A DNA stretch of 64,000 bases, taken from contig JAJDER010000070.1 in NCBI GenBank assembly GCA_029259725.1, positions 1 to 64,000 on the forward strand, in the 5' to 3' direction. The notes under the pieces were generated by a model. The model had not been told where the DNA came from. It saw only the letters and a list, made by a program, of their open reading frames with translations, and made no database searches. Position numbers and translations under genes: made by a program. Of this stretch, positions 5,328-31,200 are shown in pieces. Every line of letters begins with the position of its first letter. Within the stretch, counting starts at the first letter, position 1. Source of the stretch: Planctomycetota bacterium (GTDB lineage Bacteria > Planctomycetota > B15-G4).

Positions 5328-6347
5328 ATGACCGTCGACTCGCTGCTCACCTCGACCCTGCTCCTGCTCGCGCTGGCGGCTGCCGCTCCGGGCCAGACCC
5401 CGCCCGCGCCCGACCCGCGCGCGCCCGACCCGCGCGCTCCGACCGCCGATCCGCGCGACTCGAACATCCCGCAACACGGCCTCGTCGCCACCGTGAACGG
5501 CGAGGCCATCACCATGGGCGACGTGCGCCTGCGCATGGAGGTCCTGAAGGCGACGATGGTGCCCGACGAGACGGTCACCGAGGAGGAGCTGGCCCTGCGC
5601 GCGCGGCGCGAACTGGCCGAGGAGATCCTGCTCGCCGCCGAGGCCACGCGCCTCGGCCTGATCCTGAGCGACCTCGAGGTGAAGGACTACTGGGCCGCTC
5701 GGCTGGGCCACGAGCCCGACTTCGAGACCAGCGCCCAGGCCGCCGGCACCACCGTCCCGCGGCAGATCGAGCTGGCCCGACGCGCGGCCCTCTCCAAGCT
5801 CTACATCGACCACCGCTCGGGGTTGGCGAGCCGCTACACCGGCCGGGTGCCGCCCGATCCGGTGCTGGTGCGGCTGGTCAACGTGACCCCGGGGCAGCTG
5901 CGCGAGGCCTTCACGTCGCAGCGCGACTACTACGTGCTGCCCGAGCTGGTGCACTTCGACGTCTTCCTCTGCCGCGACACCGAGACGGCTCGCGAAGTGG
6001 CCGGCACGCTGCGCAAGGGCGAGTCGCCCACCAGCACCCGCATGGAGTCCGACACGGCGGCGGTCCCGGCCCTGGACGAGCTGTTCACGCCGCAGGCCGC
6101 CGAGTTCCTGAGGACGGCCTCGGGGGGCGACATCAGCGACCCGGTCGAGGTGGTCGGCAACGGCCGCCTGCTGGGGGTGCTCGTCTTCCGCCTCGGGCGG
6201 CGCGAGCCGGGCCGGCCCGCCACCTGGGAAGAGGTCCAGAACGAGATCCGCTTCCGGGTCCAGCGCTCCCGGCTCGAGGAGGCCCGCGCGTACCTGGTGC
6301 GCGGCCTGATCTACAGCGCCCTGTACGGCCCCGACGACCTGTTCTAG
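5328..6347 (+). CDS. SurA/parvulin-like exported peptidyl-prolyl isomerase or chaperone
   Basis: Signal peptide-like N-terminus, SurA-N-like 'LVATVNGEAITMGDVRLRMEVLKA', C-terminal 'ATWEEVQNEIRFRVQRSRLEEARAYLVRGL'. Confidence 0.65.
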   Translation: MTVDSLLTSTLLLLALAAAAPGQTPPAPDPRAPDPRAPTADPRDSNIPQHGLVATVNGEAITMGDVRLRMEVLKATMVPDETVTEEELALRARRELAEEILLAAEATRLGLILSDLEVKDYWAARLGHEPDFETSAQAAGTTVPRQIELARRAALSKLYIDHRSGLASRYTGRVPPDPVLVRLVNVTPGQLREAFTSQRDYYVLPELVHFDVFLCRDTETAREVAGTLRKGESPTSTRMESDTAAVPALDELFTPQAAEFLRTASGGDISDPVEVVGNGRLLGVLVFRLGRREPGRPATWEEVQNEIRFRVQRSRLEEARAYLVRGLIYSALYGPDDLF

Positions 6348-6537
6348 AGGCGTCGCTCGTGCTCCTGCTCGTGCTCCTGCTCGTGGCGCTCGGTCGTCCC
6401 GGAGCCGGGACACGACCGTGGGCCCGGGCGGGTGCCGTTGCCACCCTTCCGGTCAGGGCCTAGAATCGCCTGTTGGCACCCCGCGACCCCGCAGGTCCCC
6501 ATGGACCGCCGGGCCCCCCCGCGCAGGAGTCTTGGCC

Positions 6538-8097
6538 GTGGCCGAGCACTACCCCGAACTCGTCACCCAGCACCAGCACGGCGTCGGCATGCACGAGCCG
6601 AAGTCCTTCGAGGACACGCTGCGCGACCTGGTGCGGAACTCGCCGTACTTCTTCTTCTCGCTCGTGCTGCACGGCGCGGCCATCGGCGTCTTCATGCTGA
6701 TGCCCACGGACAACATCTCGGGCGAGGACGCGCGCATCATCCAGGCGACGGCTGAAGAGTTCGAGGAGCCGATCCCGCCGGAGCCGCCGCCGGAGGAGGA
6801 GATCGAGGAGGTCGAGGAGATCATCGAGGACCCGGTCGTGACCGAGGACGAGGTCACCGAGGTGATCGAGATCGTCGACAACGTCTCGACCGACGCGCCC
6901 TTCGACAGCACCGGCCTGAACGACGTGATCGGCGTGGGCGGCGGTGGCGGCGGGCAGTTCGGCAAGCTGGGGGGTCGCGGCCGCGCCGGCAAGGCGGGTG
7001 GTGAGGCCACCCAGCGCATCGTCGACGACGCCCTGCGCTGGCTGAAGAACCACCAGGACCCCGAGGGCTTCTGGTCTTGCGGCGCGTTCGACCTCGAGTG
7101 CGGCAAGCAGGGCGAGGACGTGATCTGCTCCGGACCCGGCAGCACGCAGCACGACGTGGGCGTGACCGGCCTGGCCCTGCTCGCCTTCCTTGGCGCCGAC
7201 AACACCGACAAGCGCGGCAAGTACAAGGACACCGTCCGGAACGCGCTGAAGTGGCTCAAGGACGTGCAGGAGCCCGACGGCAACTTCGGCTACATGCAGA
7301 ACGCCGACTACACCTACGACCACATCATCGCCACCCTGGCGATGGTCGAGGCGTACGCCATCACGCAGCGCAACTATCTCAAGAAGCCCGCGGAGAAGGC
7401 GCTCGAGTACATGTACTCGATCCGCAACCCCGGGGCGGCCTGGCGGTATGCGGACTTCCACCCGGAGATGCTCACGCACCAGAACGACGTGTCCGTGAGC
7501 GGCTGGGCCGTGCTGGTCATGTCGCTGGCCAAGGAGTACGACCTGCCCTTCGACGAGGTCGCGATGGACGACACCATGTTGTTCATCGAGGAGATGACCG
7601 ACGAGACCGGCAAGACCGGCTACTTCGAGCGCGGCGGCGATCCGGCGCGTCTGGAAGACAAGGGCGTGATCTGGGACAGCGGCCTCTCCGAGTCGATGAC
7701 CGCGGTGGGCATCCTGTGCCGCATCTTCGCCGACCCCGAGCTGGACAACTACCCGGGCAACAAGGCCATGGTCGAGAAGGGCATCAAGCTGATCGAGGCC
7801 AAGCCGATCGTCTGGGACGAGAACGAGATCGGGAAGATCGACTTCTACTACTGGTACTACGCGACCTACGCGCTGTACCAGTACAGCGAGATCGACTCCA
7901 AGCCGTGGAAGGCCTGGGAGAAGCGCATGGTCGATGCCATCGCCGAACAGCAGGTCAAGGAAGGCGAGGAGAAGGGCAGCTGGGACCCGTCGGTGGATCC
8001 GTGGGGCAACGTCGGTGGGCGCGTGTACAGCACGGCCACGCTGGCGCTGTGCATGGAGGTCTTCTACCGCTACGAAACGGTCATCGGCAGCCACTAG
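6538..8097 (+). CDS. Squalene-cyclase/prenyltransferase-repeat protein, copy 1, with N-terminal TM segment and acidic/proline stalk
   Basis: GTG start inferred by alignment to copy 3 (VAEHYPELV / MVATHPELV). TM 'SPYFFFSLVLHGAAIGVFML', stalk 'EEPIPPEPPPEEEIEEVEEIIEDP', then alpha/alpha-barrel-type repeats 'RWLKNHQDPEGFWSCGAFDLECGKQ...VGVTGLALLAFLG'. Confidence 0.8.
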   Translation: MAEHYPELVTQHQHGVGMHEPKSFEDTLRDLVRNSPYFFFSLVLHGAAIGVFMLMPTDNISGEDARIIQATAEEFEEPIPPEPPPEEEIEEVEEIIEDPVVTEDEVTEVIEIVDNVSTDAPFDSTGLNDVIGVGGGGGGQFGKLGGRGRAGKAGGEATQRIVDDALRWLKNHQDPEGFWSCGAFDLECGKQGEDVICSGPGSTQHDVGVTGLALLAFLGADNTDKRGKYKDTVRNALKWLKDVQEPDGNFGYMQNADYTYDHIIATLAMVEAYAITQRNYLKKPAEKALEYMYSIRNPGAAWRYADFHPEMLTHQNDVSVSGWAVLVMSLAKEYDLPFDEVAMDDTMLFIEEMTDETGKTGYFERGGDPARLEDKGVIWDSGLSESMTAVGILCRIFADPELDNYPGNKAMVEKGIKLIEAKPIVWDENEIGKIDFYYWYYATYALYQYSEIDSKPWKAWEKRMVDAIAEQQVKEGEEKGSWDPSVDPWGNVGGRVYSTATLALCMEVFYRYETVIGSH

Positions 8098-8142
8098 ACG
8101 ACGTCGCCTGATCGAACCACCGGCGCCATGCGCGTCGGTGAG

Positions 8143-8181
8143 CCGCGGCCCCGGTATCCCTTGCGGATGCCGGGGTCGCGG
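8143..8181 (+). terminator. Hairpin downstream of cyclase-like copy 1 (possible terminator)
   Basis: 12-bp inverted repeat CCGCGGCCCCGG / CCGGGGTCGCGG with one G-U type pair and 15-nt loop. Confidence 0.35.
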
Positions 8182-8444
8182 TGGTTCCGGCCGCATGCGC
8201 TCCCTCCCGGGCGGAGGCACGGGGCGGGAAAACGACCAGGTGCCCCGTGCTCAAACAGGCGCTTCGCTAAACTGCCCGCGGGACACCTGGACTTTTCCCC
8301 GTCGCCGATACATCGGAGGCGGGTGGGAGCGCCTGCGGGGGCCGGGGTGAAAGGGGCGGGACTCTGGCGCGCTTCGGCCCTGGTGGCGGTGGGCCGGACC
8401 GGCGGTATGGTGGCAAGCAGGGAGCCTCGGGGGAGTCGCCGACC

Positions 8445-9674
8445 ATGCCGTCCATTCGCGTCCTGCAGCACGTCCTGTTCTCGTTGGTCATCGTCGGCAT
8501 CGCCGCGCCCTGCTGCGAAGCCCAGACGGACCCTCCACCCGACAAGACCGATCCGAAGGCCGCCGTCGGTGGTATTGGCGGGGGCGGCAACTTCGGGAAG
8601 ATCGGCAGGCTTGGACCGATCGGTGCCAACGGCGTCAGTACCATGCGCATCACGGATGACGCACTGACGTGGCTGAAGAACCATCAGCGCCCGGACGGCT
8701 CCTGGTCAAGCGCCCACTTCGACCTGGAGTGCGGCAAGCAAGACGACGACGTGATTTGCTCCGGCAAGGGCAGCCCACAGCAGGACGTGGGTGTGACCGG
8801 GCTGGCGCTACTCGCCTTTCTCGGTACTGGCAACACCCACAGGGTGGGCAAGTACAAGTACACCTGCATGGGCGCACTGACCTGGCTCGTGGACATCCAG
8901 GATCCCGACGGCAACTTCGCCGACTCGAAGAGCAGCGACCTCGCCTACGGCCACATCATCGCCACCGTGGCCATGTGCGAAGCGTACGCAATCACGCGCG
9001 ATGACGACTTCGAGTTGCCAAGCCGGAAGGCAGTCGAGTTCATGTCCGTCGTCCTCGAGGACAAAGACGACATCACCCTCATCGGGTGGGCCGTGGTGGC
9101 CATGACCGTGGCCCGCGAATACGACATCGCGATCGATCAGTCCTCGCTGGATCGTTGCATGCGGATCCTCGTGGAACGGACCGACGAGTCCGGCCGCACC
9201 GTCGCCTCGGGTCTTGGTGCTCGGGACCAGACAGGGGGCGAGCCCGGTGCCGAGCATGCCGACCGCCACGAGCGGCCGACGGCACTCGCCCTGCTGGCTC
9301 GCATCTTCGCCGACCCCACGCTGAGCACGTACCCAGGCAACCGCGAGATGATCGACAAGGGCGTCGAGCTGATCGAGGCCAGGCCGATCGCGTGGGACAC
9401 AAGCGATCCCGGCGAGATCGACTTCCACTACTGGTACTACGGGTCCTATGCTCTCTATCAGTACAGCGTGATCGACTCCAAGCCCTGGAAGGCCTGGGAG
9501 AAGGGGATGCGCGAGGTGCTCTCCGAACATCAGGCCAAGGAAGGCGAAGCCAAGGGCAGCTGGGACCCGTCGGTGGATCCGTGGGGCAACGTCGGGGGTC
9601 GCGTCTACAGCACGGCCATGCTGGCCCTGTGCATGGAGGTCTACTACCGCTACGACACGGTGCTCGATCGCTAG
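8445..9674 (+). CDS. Squalene-cyclase/prenyltransferase-repeat protein, copy 2, secreted form without anchor/stalk
   Basis: Signal peptide 'MPSIRVLQHVLFSLVIVGIAAPCCEAQ', then 'LTWLKNHQRPDGSWSSAHFDLECGKQDDDVICSGKGSPQQDVGVTGLALLAFLG'; extended near-identity to copy 1 at the C-terminus. Confidence 0.8.
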   Translation: MPSIRVLQHVLFSLVIVGIAAPCCEAQTDPPPDKTDPKAAVGGIGGGGNFGKIGRLGPIGANGVSTMRITDDALTWLKNHQRPDGSWSSAHFDLECGKQDDDVICSGKGSPQQDVGVTGLALLAFLGTGNTHRVGKYKYTCMGALTWLVDIQDPDGNFADSKSSDLAYGHIIATVAMCEAYAITRDDDFELPSRKAVEFMSVVLEDKDDITLIGWAVVAMTVAREYDIAIDQSSLDRCMRILVERTDESGRTVASGLGARDQTGGEPGAEHADRHERPTALALLARIFADPTLSTYPGNREMIDKGVELIEARPIAWDTSDPGEIDFHYWYYGSYALYQYSVIDSKPWKAWEKGMREVLSEHQAKEGEAKGSWDPSVDPWGNVGGRVYSTAMLALCMEVYYRYDTVLDR

Positions 9675-9902
9675 ATCGTCGTCGGGAGCAGCGGCAAGCG
9701 ACCGTCTCGGTCCCACGCAGGCCGCCCATCGCTAGATTGCGGGACGCGCCCCCCCATCCGTGACCGGCCTCGGCCGTTGCTTGCGCGCCCCCTGCTCCTA
9801 GAGCCTCCTGCTCCGCCCGGACCGTGAGCGACCGACGGCACGCGAACGCCGCGCCCCGCGCTCCACCCCTGAACCGCCCGGGCGGCGGCGAGGAGGTGGA
9901 CC

Positions 9903-11471
9903 ATGGTCGCGACCCATCCCGAACTGGTCGTCCAGCGCCCGCACGAACGCAGCTTCGAGGACACGCTGCGCGAGCTGGTCCGCGACGCGCCGTACCTCTT
10001 CGTGGCGCTGGTGCTGCACGCCGTCGTGATCTTCGTGTTCGCGATGATCGAGACGCCGGCGATGGTCACCGACCCGATCCGCCAGATCACGATGACTCCC
10101 AAGCCCGAGGTCCCGCCGCTCCCGCCCGAGCCGATTCCGCCGGAGCCCGTGATCGAGCCTCCCACCGAGCCGATCATCGACCCCGTCATTGCCAAGGAGG
10201 ACGTGCCCGACGCCGAGCCGGACCTCCCGCTCGCGCCCGATACGGGCCCCGTCGACGACAACCCGCTCCCCATGATCCTCGGCCCGGGGCCGGGAGGCGG
10301 GAGCACGCACTATGGCGACCGCCCGGGGCCAGGCATAGGAGGCCCTCCCGGCGCCGGCGACGCGACCAACGAAGCGGTGAACCGAGGCCTGCGCTGGCTC
10401 GCGAAGCACCAGACTTCCGAAGGGCACTGGTCCACGGCCGCCTTCGACCTGGAGTGCGGCAAGCTGGGCGACGACACGATCTGCGACGGCGTGGGTAGCC
10501 CGCAATACGACGTCGGCGTCACCGGCCTCTCGCTGCTGGCCTTCCTGGGCGCCGGCCACACCGACAAGCGCGGTGACTTCCGCAAGACCGTCAAGGCCGG
10601 CCTGCGCTTCCTCGTGGACGTGCAGGACGGCGACGGCGTCTTCGCCGGCGGCACGGGCAGCCAGTACCCCTACGATCACGCCATCGCGACGCTGGCCCTG
10701 GTCGAGGCCACGGCGCTCAGCGGTTCGTATCCGATCAAGCAGGCCGCCAAGCGCGCGCTCGAGCACCTCTACCTGCTGCGCCAACCCGGCGCCGGCTGGC
10801 GCTACGCGGACTTCCATCCGGAGATGACCGACCCGCGGCACCGCAGCGACACCTCGGTCACCGGCTGGGCGATCCTCGCCATCACTTCGGCCAAGGAGAT
10901 CCCCGGGCTCCCGTACGACGCCGTGGCCCTCGACGACGCCATGCTCTTCCTCGAAGAGATGACCGACCGCGACACGGGGCGCACCGGCTACATCGAAGCG
11001 GGCAGCTACCCGGCGCGCGAGGCCGACCGCGCCGAGTTCTGGCCCGACCGCCAGAGCGAGTCGCTCACCGCGGTCGCCGTGTTGTGTCGCGTGTTCGCCG
11101 ACCCCGACCTGGAGATCGCCGGCAACCGCGACATGATCGAGAAGGGCGCCGCGCTGATCGGCGCCCTGCCCCCGCTCTGGAACGACGACGAGCCCGGCCG
11201 CCGCGACCTCTACTACTGGTACTACGGAGCCATGGCCCTCTACCAGGCGCAGGAACTGGACCAGAAGCCGTGGAAGCGCTGGGAGCAGGCGATCGTGTCC
11301 GAGATCGTCCCGCACCAGCACCTCCAGGGCGAGCGCACCGGCTCCTGGGACCCGCAGGTCGATCCGTGGGGTCACCTCGGCGGCCGCGTCTACAGCACGG
11401 CGATCATGACCCTGACGCTCGAGGCCTACTACCGCTACGGGCGGGTGCTCACGCCGGGGCGCGGCAGGTAG
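9903..11471 (+). CDS. Squalene-cyclase/prenyltransferase-repeat protein, copy 3, with N-terminal TM segment and proline-rich stalk
   Basis: 'RSFEDTLRELVRDAPYLFVALVLHAVVIFVFAM', stalk 'PKPEVPPLPPEPIPPEPVIEPPTEPIIDP', then the same repeat architecture 'RWLAKHQTSEGHWSTAAFDLECGKLGDDTICDG'. Confidence 0.8.
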   Translation: MVATHPELVVQRPHERSFEDTLRELVRDAPYLFVALVLHAVVIFVFAMIETPAMVTDPIRQITMTPKPEVPPLPPEPIPPEPVIEPPTEPIIDPVIAKEDVPDAEPDLPLAPDTGPVDDNPLPMILGPGPGGGSTHYGDRPGPGIGGPPGAGDATNEAVNRGLRWLAKHQTSEGHWSTAAFDLECGKLGDDTICDGVGSPQYDVGVTGLSLLAFLGAGHTDKRGDFRKTVKAGLRFLVDVQDGDGVFAGGTGSQYPYDHAIATLALVEATALSGSYPIKQAAKRALEHLYLLRQPGAGWRYADFHPEMTDPRHRSDTSVTGWAILAITSAKEIPGLPYDAVALDDAMLFLEEMTDRDTGRTGYIEAGSYPAREADRAEFWPDRQSESLTAVAVLCRVFADPDLEIAGNRDMIEKGAALIGALPPLWNDDEPGRRDLYYWYYGAMALYQAQELDQKPWKRWEQAIVSEIVPHQHLQGERTGSWDPQVDPWGHLGGRVYSTAIMTLTLEAYYRYGRVLTPGRGR

Positions 11472-16759: not shown

Positions 16760-16835
16760 TGGTGGGCAGACCCGGACTCGAACCGGGGACACCTGCATTT
16801 TCAGTGCAGTGCTCTACCACCTGAGCTATCCGCCC
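16760..16835 (-). tRNA. tRNA-Phe (anticodon GAA), CCA encoded
   Basis: Reverse complement GGGCGGATAGCTCAGGTGGTAGAGCACTGCACTGAAAATGCAGGTGTCCCCGGTTCGAGTCCGGGTCTGCCCACCA: acceptor GGGCGGA/TCTGCCC, anticodon loop CTGAAAA, GGTTCGAGTCC T-arm. Confidence 0.95.
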
Positions 16836-16917: not shown

Positions 16918-19900
16918 TCACATCGAGTCGGGGATCTCGACTCCGTCCTCGGACTCGGCCCCGGTGACATCGGCTCCTTCGGCGCGACGGATCTCCTCGA
17001 ACGTCTGGCGCGCCTGCTGTTCGATCTCCTCGAAGTGCCGCTGGGACTCCTCCAGCTCGCGCTGCACGGCCTTGCGCTGCTCGATGGCCTCGTCACTCGC
17101 CTGGCGCTGACTGGCCAGGGCCCGGGCCATCATGTCTCCGGCCTCCTTGACGGCCGACTGGGCGTCCTCGCGCTGCCGGTTGATCTGGTCGAGGATCCCG
17201 TGCTGCGCCTGCTCGGCGAGGTGCAGACGTTCCTTGGCGAGCCGCAGCTGATCCTCGGCGGCGATGCGCTTCTCGCGAGTCCGCGCCTCGAAGCGCAGGC
17301 GCTCCTCGATCAGCTCGCGCCGCCGCGTCTCGGCCGCGGCGAGACGCCGCATCGTCTCGCGCGCCAGGAGCTCGTGGTCCGACAGCTCCTGGCGTGCCTC
17401 GACCAACGCCTCTCGCGCCTTGCGAGCGTGGGCCACGGACTGCTCGGCGGTCTCCCGCGCCTCGGCGATCTGCCCGTCGAGATCCGCCAGCTCGCGCCGC
17501 GCCTCGCCGCCGGTCTCGATCAACGAATCCGCCTCGGCGCGCAACTCGACCACACGCGTCTCGAGCGCCGTCTGCTGCTCGGCCAGCCGCTTGATCCGGC
17601 CCGAGGTCTCCTTGGCGGTCTCGTCCGCCTGCTCCCGCAGGGCCTCGACCTCGCGCTCCAGCGCCTCCTTCTCGATGCGCAGCGTCTCGACCCGTTCCTC
17701 ACCGCGCGAGACGAGCTCGTCGTGCGTGCGCCGTGCCGCTTCGAGCCGCTCCGCGCTGGCGGTCTCGGCGGCCTCGGTCTCGGCCAGCTGACTCGTGGCC
17801 ACGCGCAGGTGATCCTGGGTGGTGTCGACGTCGCGCCGCAGCGTCTCCAGCGCCGCGTGCTGCTCGGCGGTCTGCTCGCGCATCTCGCCCTGACGCGTCT
17901 CCAGCACCGCGACATCCTCGGCCACGCGCGCCTGGCGCGCCCCCGTGATCGCCAGCTCCTCCTCGATCTCGGCCCGCTCGGTGACCAGCTCGGCCAGATG
18001 CTCCTCGAGCGCCTTGCGATCCGCCTCGAGGCGTTCCACCTGGCTGCGCGAACGCTCCACCAGTTCGGACTGCTCGGCACGCACCGTCGCCAGGGCGGAG
18101 GTCGCGTCCTCGTGCTGGAGATCGACGCTCGCCAACGCCTCGCGGGTCTGCCCAAGCAGGGCATCCGTCGTGGCCAGCTCCTCCTGCAGCGAGGCCAACT
18201 CGGTCTCGGACTCACCGACCCGACCACGCAGTGACGCCAACACCGCTTCCAGCTCGGTCTCGGCCGCAAACGCCCGGGCCTCGCTCTCAGCCCGCTCGAC
18301 CGTCGCCGCCTCGCGCTCGTCGGCGAGCTGTCGCTCGAGCTGCGCGCGCGCTTCGGCCGCCTCGCGAGCCCGCGTCTCGGCGGTGGCGAGATCCGCCGAG
18401 ACCTGCTCGAACCGCACCAACGCGCTGTCGTGTTCCTGGTGCAGACCGACCAGCTCTTCCTGCAACTGGTTCCGCGCCGACTCGCTGGCCGCGCGCTCCT
18501 GGCCCAGGACCGCGAGTTCACCGTTGAACGCGTCGATCCCGTCGCGCAGCTCGCTCTGCTCGGCCTTGATCCGGTCGGCCTCGGTGCGCAACTCCTGGTT
18601 CCCGACCTCGAGCGACTCGCGCTGCGCCTTGAGCTCGGCCAACTCGGCCTTGCGCCGCTCGATCGTCGCGCGCGCCTCCTCGACCTTGGTGGTGATGCGC
18701 TCCTCGACGTCCCGGTGCCGCGTCTCGGTCGCCGCCAGCTTCTCCTCCAGGGCCGCCAGGGCCTCGGTCCGCTCGCGGGTGCGCTGGCCCAGGTCATCGG
18801 CCGCCGCGGCCAGCGTGTCGCGCCGATCACCCAGCTCCAGGACGACCACCTCGAGCCGACCCGATTCCTCGCGGGCAACGCGAGCGCGTTCCTCGAGTTC
18901 GAGCGCCTCGCCTTCGGCAGCCCCGGCCCGCGCGCGCGCGTCATCGACCCGCTTCTGGGTGTCCTCGGCCTCGCTGGTGAGCGCAGAAAGGCGAGCGCCC
19001 TCCGCGTCGAGCAGCCGCTGCGTCTCGTTCAGGTTGACCGTCAGCGTCTTGAACGCCGTCTCGGTCGCGCGGGTGCGGTCCTCCTTCTCGCGCAGCGCCT
19101 CGTCGGTGGCGACGAGATGCCTGTCCAGCTCGGTGACCTTGCCCTGCAACTCCTGCAGGGTGGCCTCGAGTTCGGCCCGCTGCGTGCGCGCGCCCTCCAC
19201 CTCGAGGGCCAGCTCCTCGGCCGTCTCGCGCGCCTTGCGACCGCGTGCCTCGGCGTCGCGGACGTCGGCCTCGGCCTCGGCGAGCTGCCCGCGCGCGCCA
19301 TCGACGCGCTCCTCCAGCGTGCGCACCTCGGTCGACAGCCGCTCGGCGCGCAGGGTCGCGCGGCGCTCGGCCTCGTCCCGCACCGCCGCCGCGGTCTCGG
19401 CGTCGGCGCGCTGGGTCTCCTCCTCGCGGCGCGTCTCGGCCAGGCGCTCGGTGGCGCTCTCGACCTGCTCCTTGACGTCCTTGAGCTGGCTCCGCCACGC
19501 GGCGGCATCCCGCTCGGCCGCGCTGGCCCGCGACTGGGCGTTGGCGATGGCGTGCTCGATCTCGTTGAGCTTCTCCGCCGCACCTGCGGCGTCCGTCTCG
19601 GCCGCCTGCTGGCGGCCCACGGCGGCGGCCAGGGATTCCTCGACCCGGCGCAGCTCGGCCAGCCGGACGCGCTCGTCGTCCCCCGTCGAGCGCACCCGCT
19701 CGCTCACCCGGGCCAGCTCGGACTCGGCTTCCACCAACGCCGCGTCCAGCCGCTGGCGACGCGTCTCCATGCTCGCGCAGGCGGTGACGGATTCCTCGCG
19801 TTCATCGCGAGCCGCCGTGATCTCATCCTCGATGCCGGCCAGTTCCTCGCGCGCCCTGACGATGCGCGACTCCTGCGCCTCGGCCCGACCCGCGGCCTCG

Positions 19901-22212
19901 GTCGCCGCACGCTCGGCCTCCTCGGCGCGGCGGCGCGCTTCCTCGACCTGCCGTTCGGCCACGGCCCGGTCGTCGTCGAGCTCGCGCAGCGCTCGCTCCA
20001 ACTCACCACGCCGCTTGCTGCCCTGCTCCTCTTCCAACACCAGGGCCGCGACGCGCGCCTCCGACTCGCTGCGCTGGAGCTGCTGCTCCTCCTCGAGCTT
20101 CTGCAACTCGAGCGCCGTGCCGTCGGCCTTCTGCCGCAGCTGATCGACCCGTTCCTGCCAGGTCTGGTGGTCACCCTTCACGCTGCGCAGTTCATCGCGC
20201 GCGTCGGTGATCTCACCGCGCAGGCGCTCCAGCCGCTCCGACGCGGTGGCCACGACCTTCTGCGCTTCCTCGCGGCGCTCCTCGGCGGCCACCTGGCTCG
20301 CCGCGGTCTCCTCGAGACGCTTCTGCGCCGCCTTGGCCTTGGCCATGGTCCCGCGCACCAGTTCCTCGCTGCGCTCGAGACGCATGTCGACATCGGCCTG
20401 GTTGGTGGACAACTGCCGCGCCTGCGTCTCCAGCTCGACGATGCGCTCCCGCACCTCGGCGTGCTCGCGCTCGGCCGCCTCGATGTCCTCGTCGATCTCG
20501 GCGGCACGCTTGCCCAGCTCGTCCAGCAGGGACTCGCGCTGCTCGACCAGGGCACGCGCAGCCTCGGCACGCTGCTCCAGGTCAGCCACTTCCGCGACCG
20601 CCTGACGGGCCTTGTCCACGGCGCGCTCGCGACGCGTCTCGTCCTCGGCCAGACGCGTGCTCGCCTCGACGACCCGCTCCTCGAACGCCGCCAGGTCGGC
20701 CTGGGTCAACGTGTGACGCTGCTCGGTCTCGTCCGCCATCCGCTGCAGGTCGGCCACCCGCTGCTTGGCGACGCGCACCCGCTCCACGGCGTCACGCACA
20801 TGCTTCACGGCGGTCCGCGCCCGCTCCTCGGCGTCCACCGCCTGGCCCTCGAGCTCGGCGACGCGCGCCACGGTGGCGCGCTCCTCCTCGGCGGCGGTCT
20901 CGGCCCGGGTCACGGCCTCGGCGGCACGCGCCTCCGCCAGCCGCCGATCCGCCTCGATCTTGGCCAGGCCCGCTTCGATCTCGCTCGCCTGCGTGGCCGC
21001 ATCCGCCAAGGCCTGCTCGCGTTCGGAAGCGGCCGCCTCCGCCGCTTCGGCACGCGCTTGCGCCGCGTCCAGGCGACTCTTCACGTCGTCGAGCCTGGCC
21101 TGCACGCGCTGCTTGGTCTTCTCGACGTGCGCGCGCGCCTCGGCCTCGGCCACCTCGCGCTGCTCGTCGGAGCGGCGCTGCGCCTCGGCGCGGACCTCAG
21201 CCAGCTCGGCCTCGGTCGACGCTCGCAGCTCGGCCAGCTCGGCGGCGAGCGCCTCACGCTGGGCGGTCAACTCGGACACGACCGCCTGCTGCTCCTCGCG
21301 GGCCGCGCGTTCGGCGTCCTTGCGTTCCGCGTCCCAGGCCGCACGAGCCGTCTCGAGCTCAGCCTCGGCCTGCGCGCGCAAGGTGGCCAGCTCGGCCTCG
21401 ACCGCGTCCCGGCGGGCGGCGAGGTCGGCATGCAGCGCCGTCTCGGCCTGCGCGCCGAGCGCAGCGCGCTGGTCCGACAGCGCCTCCAGTTCGCCCTCCA
21501 CCTCGGCACGCCGGGCCGCCAGCTCGGCGGCGACCTCGTCCTGCCGGCGAGCCCCGTCCTTCTCGGCCGAAGCGCGGGCGTGTTCGACGATCTTCTTCGC
21601 CGCGGCTTCCGCCTTCGCCTTCAGCTTGACGATCTGGGCTTCCAGCTGCGCCTTGCGCGCCGCGCCGGCCGCCTCCGCATCGGCCTGGGCGGCCTCGAGC
21701 GCGGCCCGTTCGGCGTGGGCCACCTCCGCCAGCCGTTGCTCGGCTTCGGCCCGGGCCTCGGCGACGATCCGCTCGGCCTCGGCGCGAGCCTCCTCCTCAC
21801 GTTGATCGGCGCGCTCCCGCGCGCGACGCATCTGCTCGGTCGCCTCGCGCTCGGCTTCCTCGAGCCGCTCCTGCGCACGGGACGCGGCCTCCTGTTCCGT
21901 GTCGCGAGCCAGGGATCGGGCCGCGTCGGCCTCCTCGCGAGCCCGCTGCGCGCCCGCGGCCACCTCGTCCGCCGACACCCGCGCCTCGTCGAGGATGCGT
22001 CGCGCCATGTCCTCGGCCTGCCGCACCACGGCTGCGTGCCCCGCCGCCGTGGCCTCGGCATCCGCCGCCTCGTCCACGTCCGCTGCTTCCCCGGTGAACG
22101 CGATCTCGAACGACTCGCCGCACCCTCCACAGCGTGCGCGCCGACCCGCGTAACTGTCCGGCACCCTGAACGACTTGTCGCAATGGCTGCAAGTCGTGAG
22201 CCGCGTGGCCAT
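16918..22212 (-). CDS. Giant (~1764 aa) coiled-coil protein with N-terminal MJ0042-type zinc ribbon
   Basis: ATG at 22212: MATRLTTCSHCDKSFRVPDSYAGRRARCGGCGESFEI (two CxxC), followed by ~1700 aa of Ala/Glu/Arg-rich heptad sequence; no Walker motifs seen. Confidence 0.85.
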   Translation of the reverse strand: MATRLTTCSHCDKSFRVPDSYAGRRARCGGCGESFEIAFTGEAADVDEAADAEATAAGHAAVVRQAEDMARRILDEARVSADEVAAGAQRAREEADAARSLARDTEQEAASRAQERLEEAEREATEQMRRARERADQREEEARAEAERIVAEARAEAEQRLAEVAHAERAALEAAQADAEAAGAARKAQLEAQIVKLKAKAEAAAKKIVEHARASAEKDGARRQDEVAAELAARRAEVEGELEALSDQRAALGAQAETALHADLAARRDAVEAELATLRAQAEAELETARAAWDAERKDAERAAREEQQAVVSELTAQREALAAELAELRASTEAELAEVRAEAQRRSDEQREVAEAEARAHVEKTKQRVQARLDDVKSRLDAAQARAEAAEAAASEREQALADAATQASEIEAGLAKIEADRRLAEARAAEAVTRAETAAEEERATVARVAELEGQAVDAEERARTAVKHVRDAVERVRVAKQRVADLQRMADETEQRHTLTQADLAAFEERVVEASTRLAEDETRRERAVDKARQAVAEVADLEQRAEAARALVEQRESLLDELGKRAAEIDEDIEAAEREHAEVRERIVELETQARQLSTNQADVDMRLERSEELVRGTMAKAKAAQKRLEETAASQVAAEERREEAQKVVATASERLERLRGEITDARDELRSVKGDHQTWQERVDQLRQKADGTALELQKLEEEQQLQRSESEARVAALVLEEEQGSKRRGELERALRELDDDRAVAERQVEEARRRAEEAERAATEAAGRAEAQESRIVRAREELAGIEDEITAARDEREESVTACASMETRRQRLDAALVEAESELARVSERVRSTGDDERVRLAELRRVEESLAAAVGRQQAAETDAAGAAEKLNEIEHAIANAQSRASAAERDAAAWRSQLKDVKEQVESATERLAETRREEETQRADAETAAAVRDEAERRATLRAERLSTEVRTLEERVDGARGQLAEAEADVRDAEARGRKARETAEELALEVEGARTQRAELEATLQELQGKVTELDRHLVATDEALREKEDRTRATETAFKTLTVNLNETQRLLDAEGARLSALTSEAEDTQKRVDDARARAGAAEGEALELEERARVAREESGRLEVVVLELGDRRDTLAAAADDLGQRTRERTEALAALEEKLAATETRHRDVEERITTKVEEARATIERRKAELAELKAQRESLEVGNQELRTEADRIKAEQSELRDGIDAFNGELAVLGQERAASESARNQLQEELVGLHQEHDSALVRFEQVSADLATAETRAREAAEARAQLERQLADEREAATVERAESEARAFAAETELEAVLASLRGRVGESETELASLQEELATTDALLGQTREALASVDLQHEDATSALATVRAEQSELVERSRSQVERLEADRKALEEHLAELVTERAEIEEELAITGARQARVAEDVAVLETRQGEMREQTAEQHAALETLRRDVDTTQDHLRVATSQLAETEAAETASAERLEAARRTHDELVSRGEERVETLRIEKEALEREVEALREQADETAKETSGRIKRLAEQQTALETRVVELRAEADSLIETGGEARRELADLDGQIAEARETAEQSVAHARKAREALVEARQELSDHELLARETMRRLAAAETRRRELIEERLRFEARTREKRIAAEDQLRLAKERLHLAEQAQHGILDQINRQREDAQSAVKEAGDMMARALASQRQASDEAIEQRKAVQRELEESQRHFEEIEQQARQTFEEIRRAEGADVTGAESEDGVEIPDSM

Positions 22213-22526
22213 CGACGTCCCTCCCACCGTCGGGTGATGCCGCGTCGCGCCCCTTCCCACCGCCATGTCGCGCAGGGCGCCGCCGTCCCGATCGAGGACC
22301 CGAAGATACAACGAACTCGCGGACACTGGGGAGGGGTTGACAGCAACGCGCGCAAATCACCCGCGCGCGGTGGCGAGGAATGGGCGTCGTTTCGCGGAAC
22401 GACGAGCGCGCGCCTCGCGCCGAGACGACGAACGCGCCTCGTGAACTCCGCGATGGAGCAAATCCGAACGCCCCCGCGCGGCCGCCCACGCTGCGATCGG
22501 CCCCGGTTCGCCGTCGTCGGGCGGGT

Positions 22527-23825
22527 TCAGCTCGTCCGGGCGGCGCGCGGAGCGCCCTTCCGCATCGACTCGGGATCGCTGAGCTGGCCGCTGATCGAGG
22601 CCGCCGCGGCCACCGCAGGGCCCACAAGCACGTCGTCGTCGTCGAATCGGGTCGTCGTGGCCCGGCGTTCGCCGCGACTCAGGGCCGGCGGGAGCGTTCC
22701 GGGCGACAGCAGCTGGCCGCCGGCACGGAGCAGGTCCGCGACCAGCCCCTCCTCGACGGCGTGCAGCAGGTGCCGATGGCTCGCGGGGCGCCAGTAGAAG
22801 GCCAGATCGAGCTTCACGCGCCGTTCCCGGGCCACATCCACGGCCACCCGCAGGTCCTCGACCCGACCGGACAGCACCACCTGCTGGACGTGGATGGCGC
22901 GGCCCTTGCCCACTTCGACCACCCGCCCGGTGAGCAGATTGGTCACGGCGGTGAAGCCCAGCTGGCGGGCTGCGACGGTGACCCGGCGCTCGGCCGGCCC
23001 TGCGCCACCCTCGGGGTCCTCGTCCGTGCCGGGCTGAGCGGCCGCCTTGGCCTGCGTGGCCCGATCGGCCGAACTGGCCCGGGCCCGGAGCCAGACCTCG
23101 GTCGCATCGTCGGGCGGGACGATGCCGGCCACACCGACGCAGGCCAGCGTCTCGCAGAGGTTCAGGCGCTCGGGGATGGTCAGTCCGGCGATGGTCGCGC
23201 CGGAGAACTCGAGCACACAGCCGGAAAGGGTCTCGATCCCGCCCGCGGCATCCACGCCGGCCAGGGCCAGCTCCGTCGGCCCGACCCAGCGCGGAAGGCG
23301 GCCTTCCACCTCCACGTAGATCGTGTTCGGCACGGGCACGGGCAGGGTCCTGGCGCCCATCAGCGCGGCCAGCGCGTCGATCGGCGGGCGCAAGGCGACA
23401 CAGCCGAGGCCACCCAGGCCGCCCACGTCCGTGCCGCGCCCGGCCACCACGTCGTCGGCGCCGACCAGCCCGAGGTCGGCGGCGACCACACCGGGCAGCC
23501 CGCATCGATCCGGATCGAGGGCCAGCTCCAGGTTGTGCTTGCGGGCGAAGTCGATGACGGTGCGCGCCTCCTCGCGGGGCTGCGGGGCGCCACCCACGAA
23601 GACGAGCCGCCGCGCCGCCTTGAGCGCGGCCGACTCACCCTGGATGCGGAGGCTCTCGCGCGTGTCGAGCACGGCATGCGCGCCGGGACCGTCGAGCACG
23701 ACGCGGTGGATGCGCGCGTCGACCAGGTCCCCCACCGCCAGACGCCGCCGCCCCGAAGCGGCCGCGAGCACGGCCGCCACGCGGCTGCGCGTCAGGGGCG
23801 CGGCGATCGGGGCCGGATCGGACAC
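22527..23825 (-). CDS. Degenerate aconitase/LeuC-like protein lacking the Fe-S ligand cysteines (putative pseudoenzyme)
   Basis: 'VPVPNTIYVEVEGRLPRWVGPTELALA', 'LEFSGATIAGLTIPERLNLCETLA', 'SGRVEDLRVAVDVARERRV', 'EEGLVADLLRAGGQLLSPGTLPPAL', 'LVGPAVAAAASISG' align to conserved LeuC/aconitase segments; GSCT and GCxxC motifs replaced. Confidence 0.7.
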   Translation of the reverse strand: MSDPAPIAAPLTRSRVAAVLAAASGRRRLAVGDLVDARIHRVVLDGPGAHAVLDTRESLRIQGESAALKAARRLVFVGGAPQPREEARTVIDFARKHNLELALDPDRCGLPGVVAADLGLVGADDVVAGRGTDVGGLGGLGCVALRPPIDALAALMGARTLPVPVPNTIYVEVEGRLPRWVGPTELALAGVDAAGGIETLSGCVLEFSGATIAGLTIPERLNLCETLACVGVAGIVPPDDATEVWLRARASSADRATQAKAAAQPGTDEDPEGGAGPAERRVTVAARQLGFTAVTNLLTGRVVEVGKGRAIHVQQVVLSGRVEDLRVAVDVARERRVKLDLAFYWRPASHRHLLHAVEEGLVADLLRAGGQLLSPGTLPPALSRGERRATTTRFDDDDVLVGPAVAAAASISGQLSDPESMRKGAPRAARTS

Positions 23826-23829
23826 CGCG

Positions 23830-24911
23830 TCACTCCGCCACGGCCTCGGCGACCAGGTCACCGAGGACATCGGTGGGCTGGACCCCGGCCGAGAGCGACT
23901 CGATCTTCCGTTCGCGGATCAGGCGCGCCACGGTGTCCTCGATGTCCCGCGCGGCGGCGGCGTGCCCGAGGTGGTCCAGCATCATCGACACGGCCATGAT
24001 CGAGGCCACCGGGTTGGCCACGTTCTGCCCCTTGTACTTGGGGGCGCTGCCGTGGATCGGCTCGAACAGCGAGACCTGACCCGGGTGGATGTTGCCCGAA
24101 GCGGCGATGCCCAGGCCCCCCTGCAGCATCGCGCCGACGTCGGTGATGATGTCGCCGAACAGGTTGGTCGTGACCGCCACGTCGAACCACTCCGGGTTCT
24201 TGAGCATCCACATGCAGGCCGCGTCGATGTAGGCGTGATCCCGCTCGATGTCCGGGAACTCGGCGCCGACTTCCTCGAAGGTGCGGGTCCACAGGTCCTG
24301 GGCGCGGACCGCGTTGGCCTTGTCGATCATCAGCAGCTTGTGGCTTCGGGCCCGTTTGCGAGAGAGTTCGAAGGCGTAGCGGATCACGCGCTCGGTGCCG
24401 TGCCGCGTGTAGCGCATGGGCTGACTGGCGACCTCGTCGGGAGTGCCCTTGGCTTCGAAGGTGGGCTGGGCGGTGTACGCGTCCTCGGTGTTCTCGCGCA
24501 CGAAGACCATGTCGACGTCGGCCGGGCCCTTGTCCTTGAGCGGGCACAGGCGCTGGTCGTAGAGCTTGACCGGACGCAGGTTCACGAACAGATCCAGGCC
24601 GACGCGCAGGGTCATGATCACGCCGTGCTCGACCAGGCCGACGGGCGCGCGCGGGTCGCCGATGGCGCCGAGCAGTACCGCGTCCATCTGCTGGATGTCG
24701 GCGAAGGCGGAGTCCGGCAGGGTCTCACCGCCCTCGGTGCCGCCGGTCCGCAGCCAGTGGTCGGTGCCGAAGGGATACACGACCGGCTCGAACTCCAGCC
24801 CGTGCTTCTCGCTCGTGGCGGACAGCACCTTCAAGCCCTGGTCGAGGCACTCGGGGCCGATGCCGTCGCCACCGATCACCGCGATGGTGTGGGACGTGGT
24901 GGCGGCGCCGC

Positions 24912-24915
<4 letters not shown>
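23830..24915 (-). CDS. Isocitrate/isopropylmalate dehydrogenase-family protein
   Basis: '[13 protein letters not shown]', '[13 protein letters not shown]', '[14 protein letters not shown]', '[28 protein letters not shown]', '[23 protein letters not shown]'. Confidence 0.9.
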
Positions 24916-26924
<2,009 letters not shown>

Positions 26925-27008: not shown

Positions 27009-28217
27009 TCAGCTGCGCTCGATCAGCATGGCAATGCCCTGTCCGCCACCGATGCAGGCCGAGGCCACACCGTAGCGCGTCCCGCTGCGCTCGAGCTCGT
27101 GGGTCAGCGTGAGCAGCAGCCGCGTGCCGGTCGCGCCCAGCGGGTGGCCCAGCGAGACGGCACCCCCGTTGACGTTGACCTTCTCGCGGTCGAGTTCGAG
27201 TTCCTTCTCGACCGCCAGGTATTGGCCGCTGAAGGCCTCGTTGATCTCGAAGCGGTCCACGTCGCCCAGCCCGATCCCGGCCTTCTCGAGGGTGTTGCGG
27301 ATGGCCGGGGCGGGGCCGATGCCCATCTCGGTCGGATCGACGCCGCAGGCGTTCCAGGCCACGATGCGCGCGCGGGGCTTCCAGCCGTTGGCCTTCGCCT
27401 CGTCCGCGGTGGTGACCACCAGCGCCGCCGCGCCGTCCACGATGCCCGACGCGTTGCCGGCCGTGACCGTGCCGTCCTTGCCGAAGGCCGCGCGCAGCTT
27501 GGCGAGACCCTCGAGCGTGGTGTCCGGCTTGACGTGGTCATCGGTGTCGACCACACCCACGACCTGGTCGCGCTTGATGATCTCGACCGGCGCGATCTCC
27601 TCCGCGAAGCGACCGGACTTGACCGCCTCGGCGCCGCGCATATGCGACTGGTACGCGAACTCGTCCTGGGCCTCGCGGCTGATCCCGTAGCGCTTGGCCA
27701 GCTTCTCCGTGGTCTGCGCCATGTACAGCCCGCAGTGGGTGTCGTAGAGGCTGCCCATGAGCATGTCGACCAGCTCCCAGGGCTTCTGGCCGAAGCGGTA
27801 GCCCTTGCGGCCGTCCCACATCACCATGGGCGCCTGGCTCATGTTCTCGGTGCCGCCGGCGACCGTCGTCTTGGCCTCGCCGGCCAGGATCATGTGACAG
27901 GCCGAGACGACCGACTGGATCCCCGAACCACACAGGCGGTTCACGGTCAGCGCGCCGACCTCCTGGGGCACGCCCGCGCGCAGCGCGATGTGGCGCGCGC
28001 CGTAGAGCGCATCCTGGCTGGTGTAGAGCACGTTTCCGAACACGACGTGATCGACCTGTTCCGGCTTCACGTCGGTGCGCTCCAGCGCGGCCTTCGTCGC
28101 GTGGACACCGAGGTCCAGCGCCGTGAGGCCGGCCAGCTTGCCGTGGCCGGGGGTGCCGAGGTACTCGGCCATCGGGGTGCGGGCGCCGCCGAGGATGACG
28201 AGGTCAGGGTTGGTCAT
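27009..28217 (-). CDS. Thiolase (acetyl-CoA C-acyltransferase) 1
   Basis: 'LTVNRLCGSGIQSVVSA', 'FEINEAFSGQYLA', 'NVNGGAVSLGHPLGATGTRLLLTL', 'GVASACIGGGQGIAMLIE'. Confidence 0.93.
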   Translation of the reverse strand: MTNPDLVILGGARTPMAEYLGTPGHGKLAGLTALDLGVHATKAALERTDVKPEQVDHVVFGNVLYTSQDALYGARHIALRAGVPQEVGALTVNRLCGSGIQSVVSACHMILAGEAKTTVAGGTENMSQAPMVMWDGRKGYRFGQKPWELVDMLMGSLYDTHCGLYMAQTTEKLAKRYGISREAQDEFAYQSHMRGAEAVKSGRFAEEIAPVEIIKRDQVVGVVDTDDHVKPDTTLEGLAKLRAAFGKDGTVTAGNASGIVDGAAALVVTTADEAKANGWKPRARIVAWNACGVDPTEMGIGPAPAIRNTLEKAGIGLGDVDRFEINEAFSGQYLAVEKELELDREKVNVNGGAVSLGHPLGATGTRLLLTLTHELERSGTRYGVASACIGGGQGIAMLIERS

Positions 28218-28326: not shown

Positions 28327-29109
28327 TCAGTGCCCCTGGAAGTGGGCGGGCCGCTTCTCCAGGAAGGCCGTCATGCCCTCCTTGACGTCGTCGGTCGCGG
28401 CGAGCAAGCCGAAGAACGTGGCCTCGTAGTCGAGGCCGTCCGCGAGGGGCATCTCGCTGCCGTGGTTCACGGCATCGAGCGCGAAGCGCATCGCGACCGG
28501 GCCGTGACCGAGCATCTTGCGCAGCGCCTTCTCGGTGGCGGGGATCAACTCGGCCTGCGGAAAGACCTTGTTGACCAGACCGATGCGGTGGGCTTCGGCG
28601 GCATCGATCGGCTTGGCGGAGAGGATCAGCTCCATCGCGCGGCCCTTGCCGACGAGGCGCGGCAGGCGCTGGGTCCCGCCATAGCCGGGGATGATGCCGA
28701 GCGTGACCTCGGGCAGGCCGAGCAGGGCGTTGTCGCTGGCGAAGCGCAGGTGGCAGGCCATCGCCAGCTCGCAGCCCCCGCCCAACGCGAACCCGTTGAC
28801 GGCCGCGATGACCGGCTTGGGCAGGCCCTCGATGGTGTCCATCAGGTGCTGACCCTTCTGGGCCAGCGGGCGCGCCTGGAGCGGCGTCTGCTTGGCGAGC
28901 TCGCCGATGTCGGCCCCGGCCACGAAGGCCTTCTCACCCGCACCGGTGAGGATCACGGCGCGCACGCTGTCGTCGTCGCGCAGGGCCTCGAAGCAGTGCT
29001 GCAGCTCGCCGATCACGGCGTCGTTGAGCGCGTTGAGCTTATCGGGGCGATCGACGGTGACGCGGGCGATGCCGCCCTCGTCCTCGCGCAGGATGTTCTC
29101 GTAGGCCAC
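28327..29109 (-). CDS. Enoyl-CoA hydratase/isomerase (crotonase family)
   Basis: 'VTVDRPDKLNALNDAVIGEL', 'AFVAGADIGEL', 'AAVNGFALGGGCELAMACHLRFAS', 'LGIIPGYGGTQRLPRLVGKGRAMELILS'. Confidence 0.93.
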   Translation of the reverse strand: MAYENILREDEGGIARVTVDRPDKLNALNDAVIGELQHCFEALRDDDSVRAVILTGAGEKAFVAGADIGELAKQTPLQARPLAQKGQHLMDTIEGLPKPVIAAVNGFALGGGCELAMACHLRFASDNALLGLPEVTLGIIPGYGGTQRLPRLVGKGRAMELILSAKPIDAAEAHRIGLVNKVFPQAELIPATEKALRKMLGHGPVAMRFALDAVNHGSEMPLADGLDYEATFFGLLAATDDVKEGMTAFLEKRPAHFQGH

Positions 29110-29112
29110 GGG

Positions 29113-29943
29113 TCAGTCCTTCTTGGCGCGCTTGGTCGTCGCCTTCTTCTTGGTGGTGGTCTTCTTGCCCGCCGGCTTCTTGGCAGCGGACGCGGCCGAC
29201 TTGGCCGACGCGGCCTTCTTGGCCGGCGCCTTCGTCGAGGCCGAGCTCTTGGCCTTGCCCCCCGAGGAGCCGGACCGCGAGCTCGAGGCGGCCTTCTTCC
29301 GGGGCGCCGGCTGCTCCTCGGGCGCCTCGACGTCCTGCTCGGTCTCGACCTCGGCGCTCGACTCGCGCTGGTCCCCGCCCTTGGACTCGGACCGCGAAGT
29401 GGACCGACCGCCGTCGCGCGCGCTCTCGGGCATGTCGGTCTCGTCGAACTCCGCGCCCTCGATCTCGATGCGGTTGATGTAGATCGGGAAGCGCGGCGAG
29501 CTGCACTCCTTGTAGCGGTTCTCCTCGACCGCGACCTCGCAGATCTTGGCCAACACTTCGTCACCGTCCAGCAGCCGGGCGAACGCGCTGTACTTGTAGT
29601 CGAGGTAGCGCGCGTCGTTGGTGCAGACGAAGAACTGGCTGCCGGCACTGTGCGGATCGTTGTTCCGGGCCATCGACACGGTGCCGCGAACGTGCGGCGT
29701 GTCGTTGAACTCGGGACGGATCGTGTAGCCGGGGCCACCCGTGCCATCACCCTTGGGGCAACCGGCCTGGATCATGAAGTCGGCCAACACCCGGTGGAAC
29801 GTCAACCCGTCGTAGAAGCCCTGGTGCGCGAGACGGGCGAAGTTCTCGCAGGTGCGCGGGGCCTTGTCGACGAGCAGCTCGAGCGCGAACTCGCCCATCG
29901 ACGTGTGCAGCCGCGCCTGGGCCGACTTCTGGAAGATGACCAT
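29113..29943 (-). CDS. Cyclophilin-type peptidyl-prolyl isomerase with C-terminal Lys/Ala-rich (histone-H1-like) tail
   Basis: 'FHRVLADFMIQAGCPKGDGTGGPGYTI', 'GTVSMARNNDPHSAGSQFFVC'; tail 'KAPAKKAASAKSAASAAKKPAGKKTTTKKKATTKRAKKD'. Confidence 0.9.
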   Translation of the reverse strand: MVIFQKSAQARLHTSMGEFALELLVDKAPRTCENFARLAHQGFYDGLTFHRVLADFMIQAGCPKGDGTGGPGYTIRPEFNDTPHVRGTVSMARNNDPHSAGSQFFVCTNDARYLDYKYSAFARLLDGDEVLAKICEVAVEENRYKECSSPRFPIYINRIEIEGAEFDETDMPESARDGGRSTSRSESKGGDQRESSAEVETEQDVEAPEEQPAPRKKAASSSRSGSSGGKAKSSASTKAPAKKAASAKSAASAAKKPAGKKTTTKKKATTKRAKKD

Positions 29944-30003
29944 GATTGCCCTTTGAGGGCTGACCCTCGGGGGAGGGTTCGCCTCGGCAGGAGGTGGGTC
30001 GCG

Positions 30004-31200
30004 CTACTCGGCGACCTTGATGTCGTCCGCGCTACGCGGGCGGATCGTGACCTTTTCCATGAGGACCCGCTCGCTCGTCGCACCCGAACTCGAGCCCACG
30101 GCGGTGAGCGCGTCGATCGCCTCCCAGCCGCTCAGGACCGAACCGAAGACGGTGTAGTTCCCATCGAGGTGCGGCGCGGTGGCGTTGCAGATGAAGAACT
30201 GGCTGCCGGCGGAATCCGGGTGCTGGCTGCGAGCCATCGACAGCGTACCGCGCGTGTGCGGACGGTCGTTGAACTCGGCATCGATCTTGTAGCCGGGGCC
30301 GCCGGTGCCGTTCCCGTCCGGGCAGCCGCCCTGGATCATGAAGCCGGGGATGACGCGGTGGAACAGCAGCCCGTCGTAGAAGCCCTTCTGCGCCAGGTCG
30401 ACGAAGTTCTTCACGTGCCCGGGGGCCACGTCGGGGAAGAACTCGAGCACGATCGTGCCCTTGTTGGTCTCCATCACGGCGACCATCTCGTCGCTCTCGT
30501 AGGTGCTCATCCAGAACTCCTTGCTCGCCTCGTCGACGATCGCCTCGGCGGCGACCTCGACTTCGGCCGGGGTGGGTTGGGCCTCGATCACCGCGCGCGC
30601 GGCCGCTGCGGCCTCGGCGCGGGTGGAGAGGTCGGCGGCCTCCTCGAACAGGTCCGTGCAGGCGGCGGCGATCTGGGCCGCCCCCTCCTCCAGGGCGACG
30701 AGTTGCGCGCCGTCCTGCGCGGCGGCGGCCTGGGCCAGGTCGCGCTGCGCCTTGCCGGCCTGGCGCGTGAGCAGCCCGGCGCGGGTCATGAGCTGACTGG
30801 CCTGCTTGCGGATCTCGGGCACGCCCGAGGCACCGGCCTTGCCGACGAGCCCGCGCGCGGCCGCCTCGGCCTGCTTCGCGCGGTCGAGAGCGGTGCTGAC
30901 CGCGACCCCCACGTTGCCGGCCAGGTCGGCCACCGGCGTCGACAGGCGCTCCATGCGCACGGCTTCGGCGGCTTCCGCCACGGGGTCGTGGTCCTCGATG
31001 GCGCTCTCACGGGCCCGGAACGCCTCGGCGTCGGCGATGGCGCGCTGCGCCTGCTCACGCGCCGCGTCGGCCTCGGCCTGACTGTCGGCCAGGGACGGGG
31101 TCGCCGTCGCGGCAGCGGTGCTCTGGGCCACGTCGTCGGTCGCGCAGCCCGCGGCGATCAGGAGCACACCCGCGGTCAGACTCCGGATGACGGTGTTCAT
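30004..31200 (-). CDS. Lipoprotein with helical N-terminal region fused to cyclophilin-type peptidyl-prolyl isomerase
   Basis: Lipobox 'LLIAAGC', Ala-rich helical segment, then 'FHRVIPGFMIQGGCPDGNGTGGPGYKI', 'GTLSMARSQHPDSAGSQFFIC'. Confidence 0.88.
   Translation of the reverse strand: MNTVIRSLTAGVLLIAAGCATDDVAQSTAAATATPSLADSQAEADAAREQAQRAIADAEAFRARESAIEDHDPVAEAAEAVRMERLSTPVADLAGNVGVAVSTALDRAKQAEAAARGLVGKAGASGVPEIRKQASQLMTRAGLLTRQAGKAQRDLAQAAAAQDGAQLVALEEGAAQIAAACTDLFEEAADLSTRAEAAAAARAVIEAQPTPAEVEVAAEAIVDEASKEFWMSTYESDEMVAVMETNKGTIVLEFFPDVAPGHVKNFVDLAQKGFYDGLLFHRVIPGFMIQGGCPDGNGTGGPGYKIDAEFNDRPHTRGTLSMARSQHPDSAGSQFFICNATAPHLDGNYTVFGSVLSGWEAIDALTAVGSSSGATSERVLMEKVTIRPRSADDIKVAE

Follow-up and report, generated by a model that had tools for sequence, protein, structure and literature searches.

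What role might be left to a protein that resembles aconitases along its whole length, is encoded in one operon with an intact aconitase, and has itself lost the cysteines of the iron-sulfur site? The question is raised by a gene in the window, that is, the whole stretch of 64,000 nucleotides analysed here, which comes from a contig of a Planctomycetota bacterium. With a probability of roughly 0.45, we favor the reading that its product, hereafter the Cys-less protein, is of LeuC-type descent and acts not as a catalyst but as a partner that binds or regulates the dehydrogenase/aconitase module encoded beside it.

Fold and lost active site of the Cys-less protein

The gene occupies positions 22527-23825 of the minus strand and encodes 432 aa from a GTG at 23825, which lies 4 bp past the stop of the upstream dehydrogenase gene (TGA CGCG GTG) and directly behind which the homology to aconitases starts. 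An alternative in-frame ATG at 23870 would yield 447 aa and an overlap with the dehydrogenase gene. Given the GTG as start, the coordinates reported in the earlier note, which had assigned no strand, are right. The codon-position G+C (0.81/0.55/0.90) points to coding on the minus strand and, together with homology, ruled out an overlapping plus-strand ORF of 539 aa (22380-23999) as the true gene.

Profile searches and predicted models indicate that the Cys-less protein has the LeuC/aconitase large-subunit fold, comprising domains 1-3. It matched Pfam PF00330 (Aconitase) with 64 bits against a gathering cut-off of 28.7, as well as the NCBIfam model PRK00402 (archaeal-type LeuC/homoaconitase; residues 34-434, E 5.7e-31), where its 107.6 bits are far under the curated cut-off of 385. 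A single-sequence phmmer search retrieved MJ0499 (PDB 4nqy, 4kp1) over residues 31-434 with E about 1e-13, and a profile built from ten Cys-less members did so at E about 3e-62. Furthermore, a template-free AlphaFold model based on three Cys-less sequences only was of low confidence (pLDDT 52), and its top 17 Foldseek matches were all aconitase superfamily structures. A second model, for which three intact aconitases from the same operons were added to the alignment, reached a pLDDT of 79, a pTM of 0.83, and a TM-score of about 0.75 to 4kp1 and 4kp2. Since the latter alignment is biased towards the aconitase fold by construction, the first model represents the independent test; the fold of domains 1-3, which the sequence homology also covers, was present in both. 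Thus, the fold assignment of the earlier note was confirmed by full-length profile, PDB, and Foldseek matches, and the segments it had quoted do align with aconitases. The best structural match is the archaeal-type LeuC/homoaconitase large subunit (PRK00402, TIGR01343, TIGR02086; 4kp1, 4nqy, 4kp2), which the Cys-less protein resembles in full-length homology, in length, and in possessing domains 1-3 without domain 4, but from which it differs in lacking the cysteine ligands, DSHT, and NRNFxGR, and in having no small-subunit gene adjacent.

Aconitase-family dehydratases need three cysteines for their 4Fe-4S cluster. In the window protein, all three (of GSCT and GCxxC) are missing: QVVLSGR (22863-22883, minus strand) takes the place of the GSCT loop, with GSCT deleted next to VVLSGR, and PGTLPPAL (22680-22703, minus strand) that of the GCxxC loop; compared with the operon aconitase, this loop lacks five residues, and GCxxC falls within the deletion at SPGTLPPAL. 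NRNFxGR falls in a nine-residue deletion, the DSHT position reads GTDV, and the N-terminal half has also lost the conserved DH pair and a later His. The loss of GSCT, GCxxC, DSHT, and NRNF, as described previously for this one protein, extends to every member of the clade, with the full cysteine set missing in 22 of 22 genomes. Relative to 35 canonical rows of the alignment, the clade has changed or deleted both the cluster-ligand motifs (GSCT, CxxC) and the catalytic ones (the DH pair, the later His, DSHT, NRN, and the R of GR). Shared by the two groups are residues that maintain the fold, namely VP, the ExxG strand, several glycines, a D/E position, and single R and D residues. Possible vestiges of the ligand loops were seen in a few members: L073 and L074 (genus g7 of family f2) read PTCG at the CxxC site, and L084 (G279, family f24) has GSCA in place of GSCT. 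Domain 4 (the swivel) is present neither in the Cys-less chain nor as an orphan domain 4 or small-subunit gene beside it, and the PF00694 matches in genomes of the window's family (f1) sit at canonical aconitase/LeuC loci.

Classical members of the superfamily share a single conserved cluster site and are identical at more than 15 of 20 active-site residues (PMC8184944). Loss of the canonical residues does not by itself preclude catalysis: AcnX, the nearest precedent of a branch devoid of most of them, is nonetheless a dehydratase with a three-cysteine site of its own (PMC8184944, PMC5144071). By analogy, the Cys-less protein could be a catalyst in which the aconitase scaffold supports new chemistry, either metal-free or with a differently ligated metal, as would fit its conservation, its place among metabolic genes, and the R, H, and E residues that do not vary among the f1 and f2 proteins. 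We consider this unlikely, however, as the clade alignment contains no cysteine conserved clade-wide and no new polar residue invariant across the whole clade, domain 4, from which aconitases and AcnX derive their catalytic serine, is absent, and the divergence is fast relative to the neighboring genes. The lack of replacement cysteines and of domain 4 renders a pseudoenzyme likelier than a new enzyme. Hence AcnX (PDB 7cnp, 7cnq) is comparable as a superfamily branch without canonical active-site residues (PMC8184944), but is unlike the Cys-less protein in being catalytic and in having its own cluster site and domain 4. Membership in AcnX itself was rejected, as no AcnX family model was among the Pfam and NCBIfam matches and no clade-wide cysteine exists; in the matches of the models, AcnX structures rank under all LeuC and aconitase structures.

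Iron regulatory proteins (IRPs) provide a second comparison, since IRP1 devoid of its cluster is an RNA-binding protein, and IRPs clamp RNA with domain 4 together with domains 1-3. IRP1 and IRP2 were indeed among the structural matches of our models, and both they and, presumably, the Cys-less protein are aconitase-fold proteins with a non-enzymatic role. A sensor of this kind, in which the open, cluster-free cleft would bind RNA or a metabolite, nevertheless appears improbable, given that IRPs keep the domain 4 required for RNA clamping, which is missing here, and that they matched worse than LeuC-type structures.

Distribution, descent, and selection

Homologs without the three-cysteine site were detected in 22 genomes belonging to three GTDB families of Planctomycetota, with 5 of 6 genomes carrying the gene in f1, all four in f2, and 13 genomes in f24, but none of four in f3, a family of the same order as f1; contig ends truncate some of the copies in f2 and f24. 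This search covered Planctomycetota and, by means of short peptide patterns, one genome collection, and yielded no orthologue with intact sites; relatives in viral contigs were not found. Against a collection of genome contigs, a profile of three Cys-less members matched the Planctomycetota MAG contigs JAJDEO010000016.1 and JAQWOM010000002.1, while the single protein as query gave no match there and a ten-sequence alignment was too diverse to serve as one. The f24 proteins (L076-L088) are further marked by conserved ends of their own, an N-terminal MPHTPQTAV and RDSK near the C-terminus.

A maximum-likelihood tree separated the 22 Cys-less proteins, as a single clade with 99/96 support, from 36 canonical rows. 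When long-branch attraction was checked with leave-out trees, the f1/f2 and the f24 proteins each had a long stem and branched outside the whole set of canonical rows, and the attachment point of neither subgroup was placed. A joint origin of both subgroups is supported by character states they have in common, for example a Gly that precedes the ExxG strand in 22 of 23 Cys-less rows and in 3 of 35 canonical ones; in view of the long stems and the lacking attachment point, it is likely but not certain. The origin itself would have been a free-standing large subunit of the LeuC/homoaconitase type (domains 1-3), whose fold was kept while cluster loops and catalytic residues were lost. A 695-aa single-chain aconitase from G059 (L027/L137; contig C240:881-2965) is likewise devoid of DSHT, GSCT, CxxC, and NRNF. 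Unlike the Cys-less clade, it possesses domain 4 and has canonical relatives at about 40% identity, which indicates that it probably represents a separate, single loss of cluster and catalytic motifs; it was not accepted as a clade member.

Where close pairs permitted the measurement, i.e., in f2 and f24 (f1 has none), dN/dS of the Cys-less gene was 0.15-0.32, compared with 0.05-0.20 in neighboring genes, demonstrating that it is under purifying but weaker selection than its neighbors. Among f1 orthologues, the Cys-less protein retains only 35-45% identity, as opposed to 73-84% for the aconitase, dehydrogenase, thiolase, and enoyl-CoA hydratase. Such fast evolution, the elevated dN/dS, and the single cysteine left near a ligand site in a few members might be expected if the gene were a relic that is almost neutral or in slow decay. 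This explanation is very unlikely, though, as none of the ORFs in the 22 genomes contains a frameshift or internal stop, dN/dS is well under 1, and the gene has kept its position within one old, deeply diverged clade. The same 22 genomes, intact ORFs, and dN/dS values ruled out sequencing error or recent decay. None of the three refuting conditions set out in the earlier note (no match to the aconitase fold, orthologues with intact sites, and relaxed selection of the pseudogene type) was borne out, selection having been gauged in f2 and f24. Its suggestion of a non-catalytic paralogue is accordingly well supported at the sequence level, where the sites are lost throughout the clade and the gene is conserved; the protein would hold no Fe-S cluster and display no activity of the family. 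Judged in this way, it is a pseudoenzyme, its catalytic motifs having been lost while the gene remained conserved under purifying selection (f2, f24).

Gene neighborhood and candidate partners

The Cys-less gene lies in a same-strand run comprising 3-hydroxyacyl-CoA dehydrogenase, two cyclophilins, enoyl-CoA hydratase (28327-29109), thiolase (27009-28217), aconitase (24912-26924), dehydrogenase (23830-24900), the Cys-less gene itself, and, some 200 bp further on, the gene of a long coiled-coil protein (16918-22326), all on the minus strand. The aconitase-family hydratase begins with the swivel domain and is intact (DSHT, GSCT, GCGAC, and NRNF are present); it scores under every NCBIfam equivalog cut-off. 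Profile matches place the dehydrogenase among the beta-decarboxylating enzymes of the isocitrate/isopropylmalate dehydrogenase family; the name isocitrate dehydrogenase was rejected, as its best NCBIfam model is 3-isopropylmalate dehydrogenase. The genome additionally has an aconitase of the mitochondrial type, which scores above its cut-off, and a LeuC/LeuB-type locus, each separate from the operon, which makes the operon aconitase and dehydrogenase a third set. The two cyclophilin-type peptidyl-prolyl isomerase genes (29113-31050, minus strand) are consecutive within this beta-oxidation/aconitase run and are also found in f1 relatives. Elsewhere in the window, we noted its sole tRNA, tRNA-Phe (gaa), at 16760-16835 (minus strand), and three tandem plus-strand ORFs of about 470-595 aa at about 6310-11470, which belong to a single BLAST family and have a relative in G001 (locus L068).

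In f1 (the window, L068, L069, L070), thiolase is followed by aconitase, dehydrogenase, and the Cys-less gene, in this order; in f2, the Cys-less gene stands between thiolase and dehydrogenase, without an intervening aconitase. The f2 Cys-less gene hence occupies the operon place held in related f1 by the active hydratase, from which it may be that a subunit of catalytic type turned regulatory. Across these two gene orders, a dehydrogenase orthologue (59-84% identity) adjoins the Cys-less gene in 8 of 9 f1 and f2 carriers. The exception is G005 of f1, where the Cys-less gene is found on a short contig apart from the dehydrogenase and is still followed by the coiled-coil gene. The sole f1 genome without the Cys-less gene, G003 (one incomplete MAG), is also without orthologues of the dehydrogenase and the operon aconitase. 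Both the pairing in f1/f2 and this joint absence suggest a partnership. On the other hand, four observations count against it: f24 has the gene beside purL and no dehydrogenase orthologue, so that the partner cannot be identical in all families; f3 has the dehydrogenase (3 of 4 genomes) and the aconitase, unlinked, without the Cys-less gene; the two genes are on different contigs in G005; and the Cys-less gene varies far more than its presumed partner.

Alternatively, the protein could be a structural partner of something else, its adjacency to the dehydrogenase being incidental. A related coiled-coil gene follows it in 5 of 5 f1 carriers, including G005 with the dehydrogenase elsewhere, and in f24 it lies, by gene-family comparison, downstream of purL in 12 of 13 genomes. 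We regard this as rather unlikely, since the dehydrogenase pairing outlasts the change in gene order, purL is not a neighbor in f1 or f2, and no coiled-coil neighbor was present in the f2 stretches examined. The coiled-coil protein itself has 1802 aa and a zinc-ribbon-like N-terminal start (CxxC...CxxC). With purL as neighbor and the dehydrogenase orthologue missing in f24, the partner would differ between families; in genus g32 of f24, moreover, genes for enoyl-CoA hydratase and 3-hydroxyacyl-CoA dehydrogenase converge on the Cys-less gene. On the operon evidence, a protein partner, the dehydrogenase first, is favored over RNA or the aconitase.

Proposed role and meaning

We hypothesize that the Cys-less protein binds the dehydrogenase, alone or jointly with the aconitase, in a structural or allosteric capacity, by means of a surface that has become fixed in f1 and f2, where the pairing is retained, and that it may thereby exert a regulatory effect on the module. 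Five residues (E349, R366, H370, E374, and R382 in the 447-aa numbering) are invariant in f1 and f2 and vary in canonical enzymes and in f24, three of them being spaced by four (366, 370, 374); possibly, they form the interaction surface for the shared neighbor, the dehydrogenase. PDB 9a4j, which appeared among the structural matches of both models, is titled as an integrative model of an ACNA-IDH complex, and by this title suggests that aconitase-dehydrogenase contacts exist elsewhere. In having lost its motifs and kept its fold, the Cys-less protein also resembles the pseudoenzymes that serve other protein families as regulatory partners; a review of these, in which aconitase goes unmentioned, documents allosteric and scaffold roles (PMC10211241). 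The broader proposition, that a lineage-wide pseudo-aconitase gave up its Fe-S chemistry for the role of a regulatory or structural subunit in the dehydrogenase/aconitase module, is put forward only tentatively.

No description of a Cys-less aconitase family was found in the open-access literature or in the libraries searched, and the clade is apparently an undescribed pseudoenzyme family. Annotation by fold only would mislabel its genes as hydratases. With the fold kept, the ligands lost, and an active cousin in the same operon, the clade constitutes a natural experiment on the passage from an Fe-S enzyme to a non-enzyme, and its members are candidates for a bacterial regulatory subunit of an isocitrate/isopropylmalate-type dehydrogenase.
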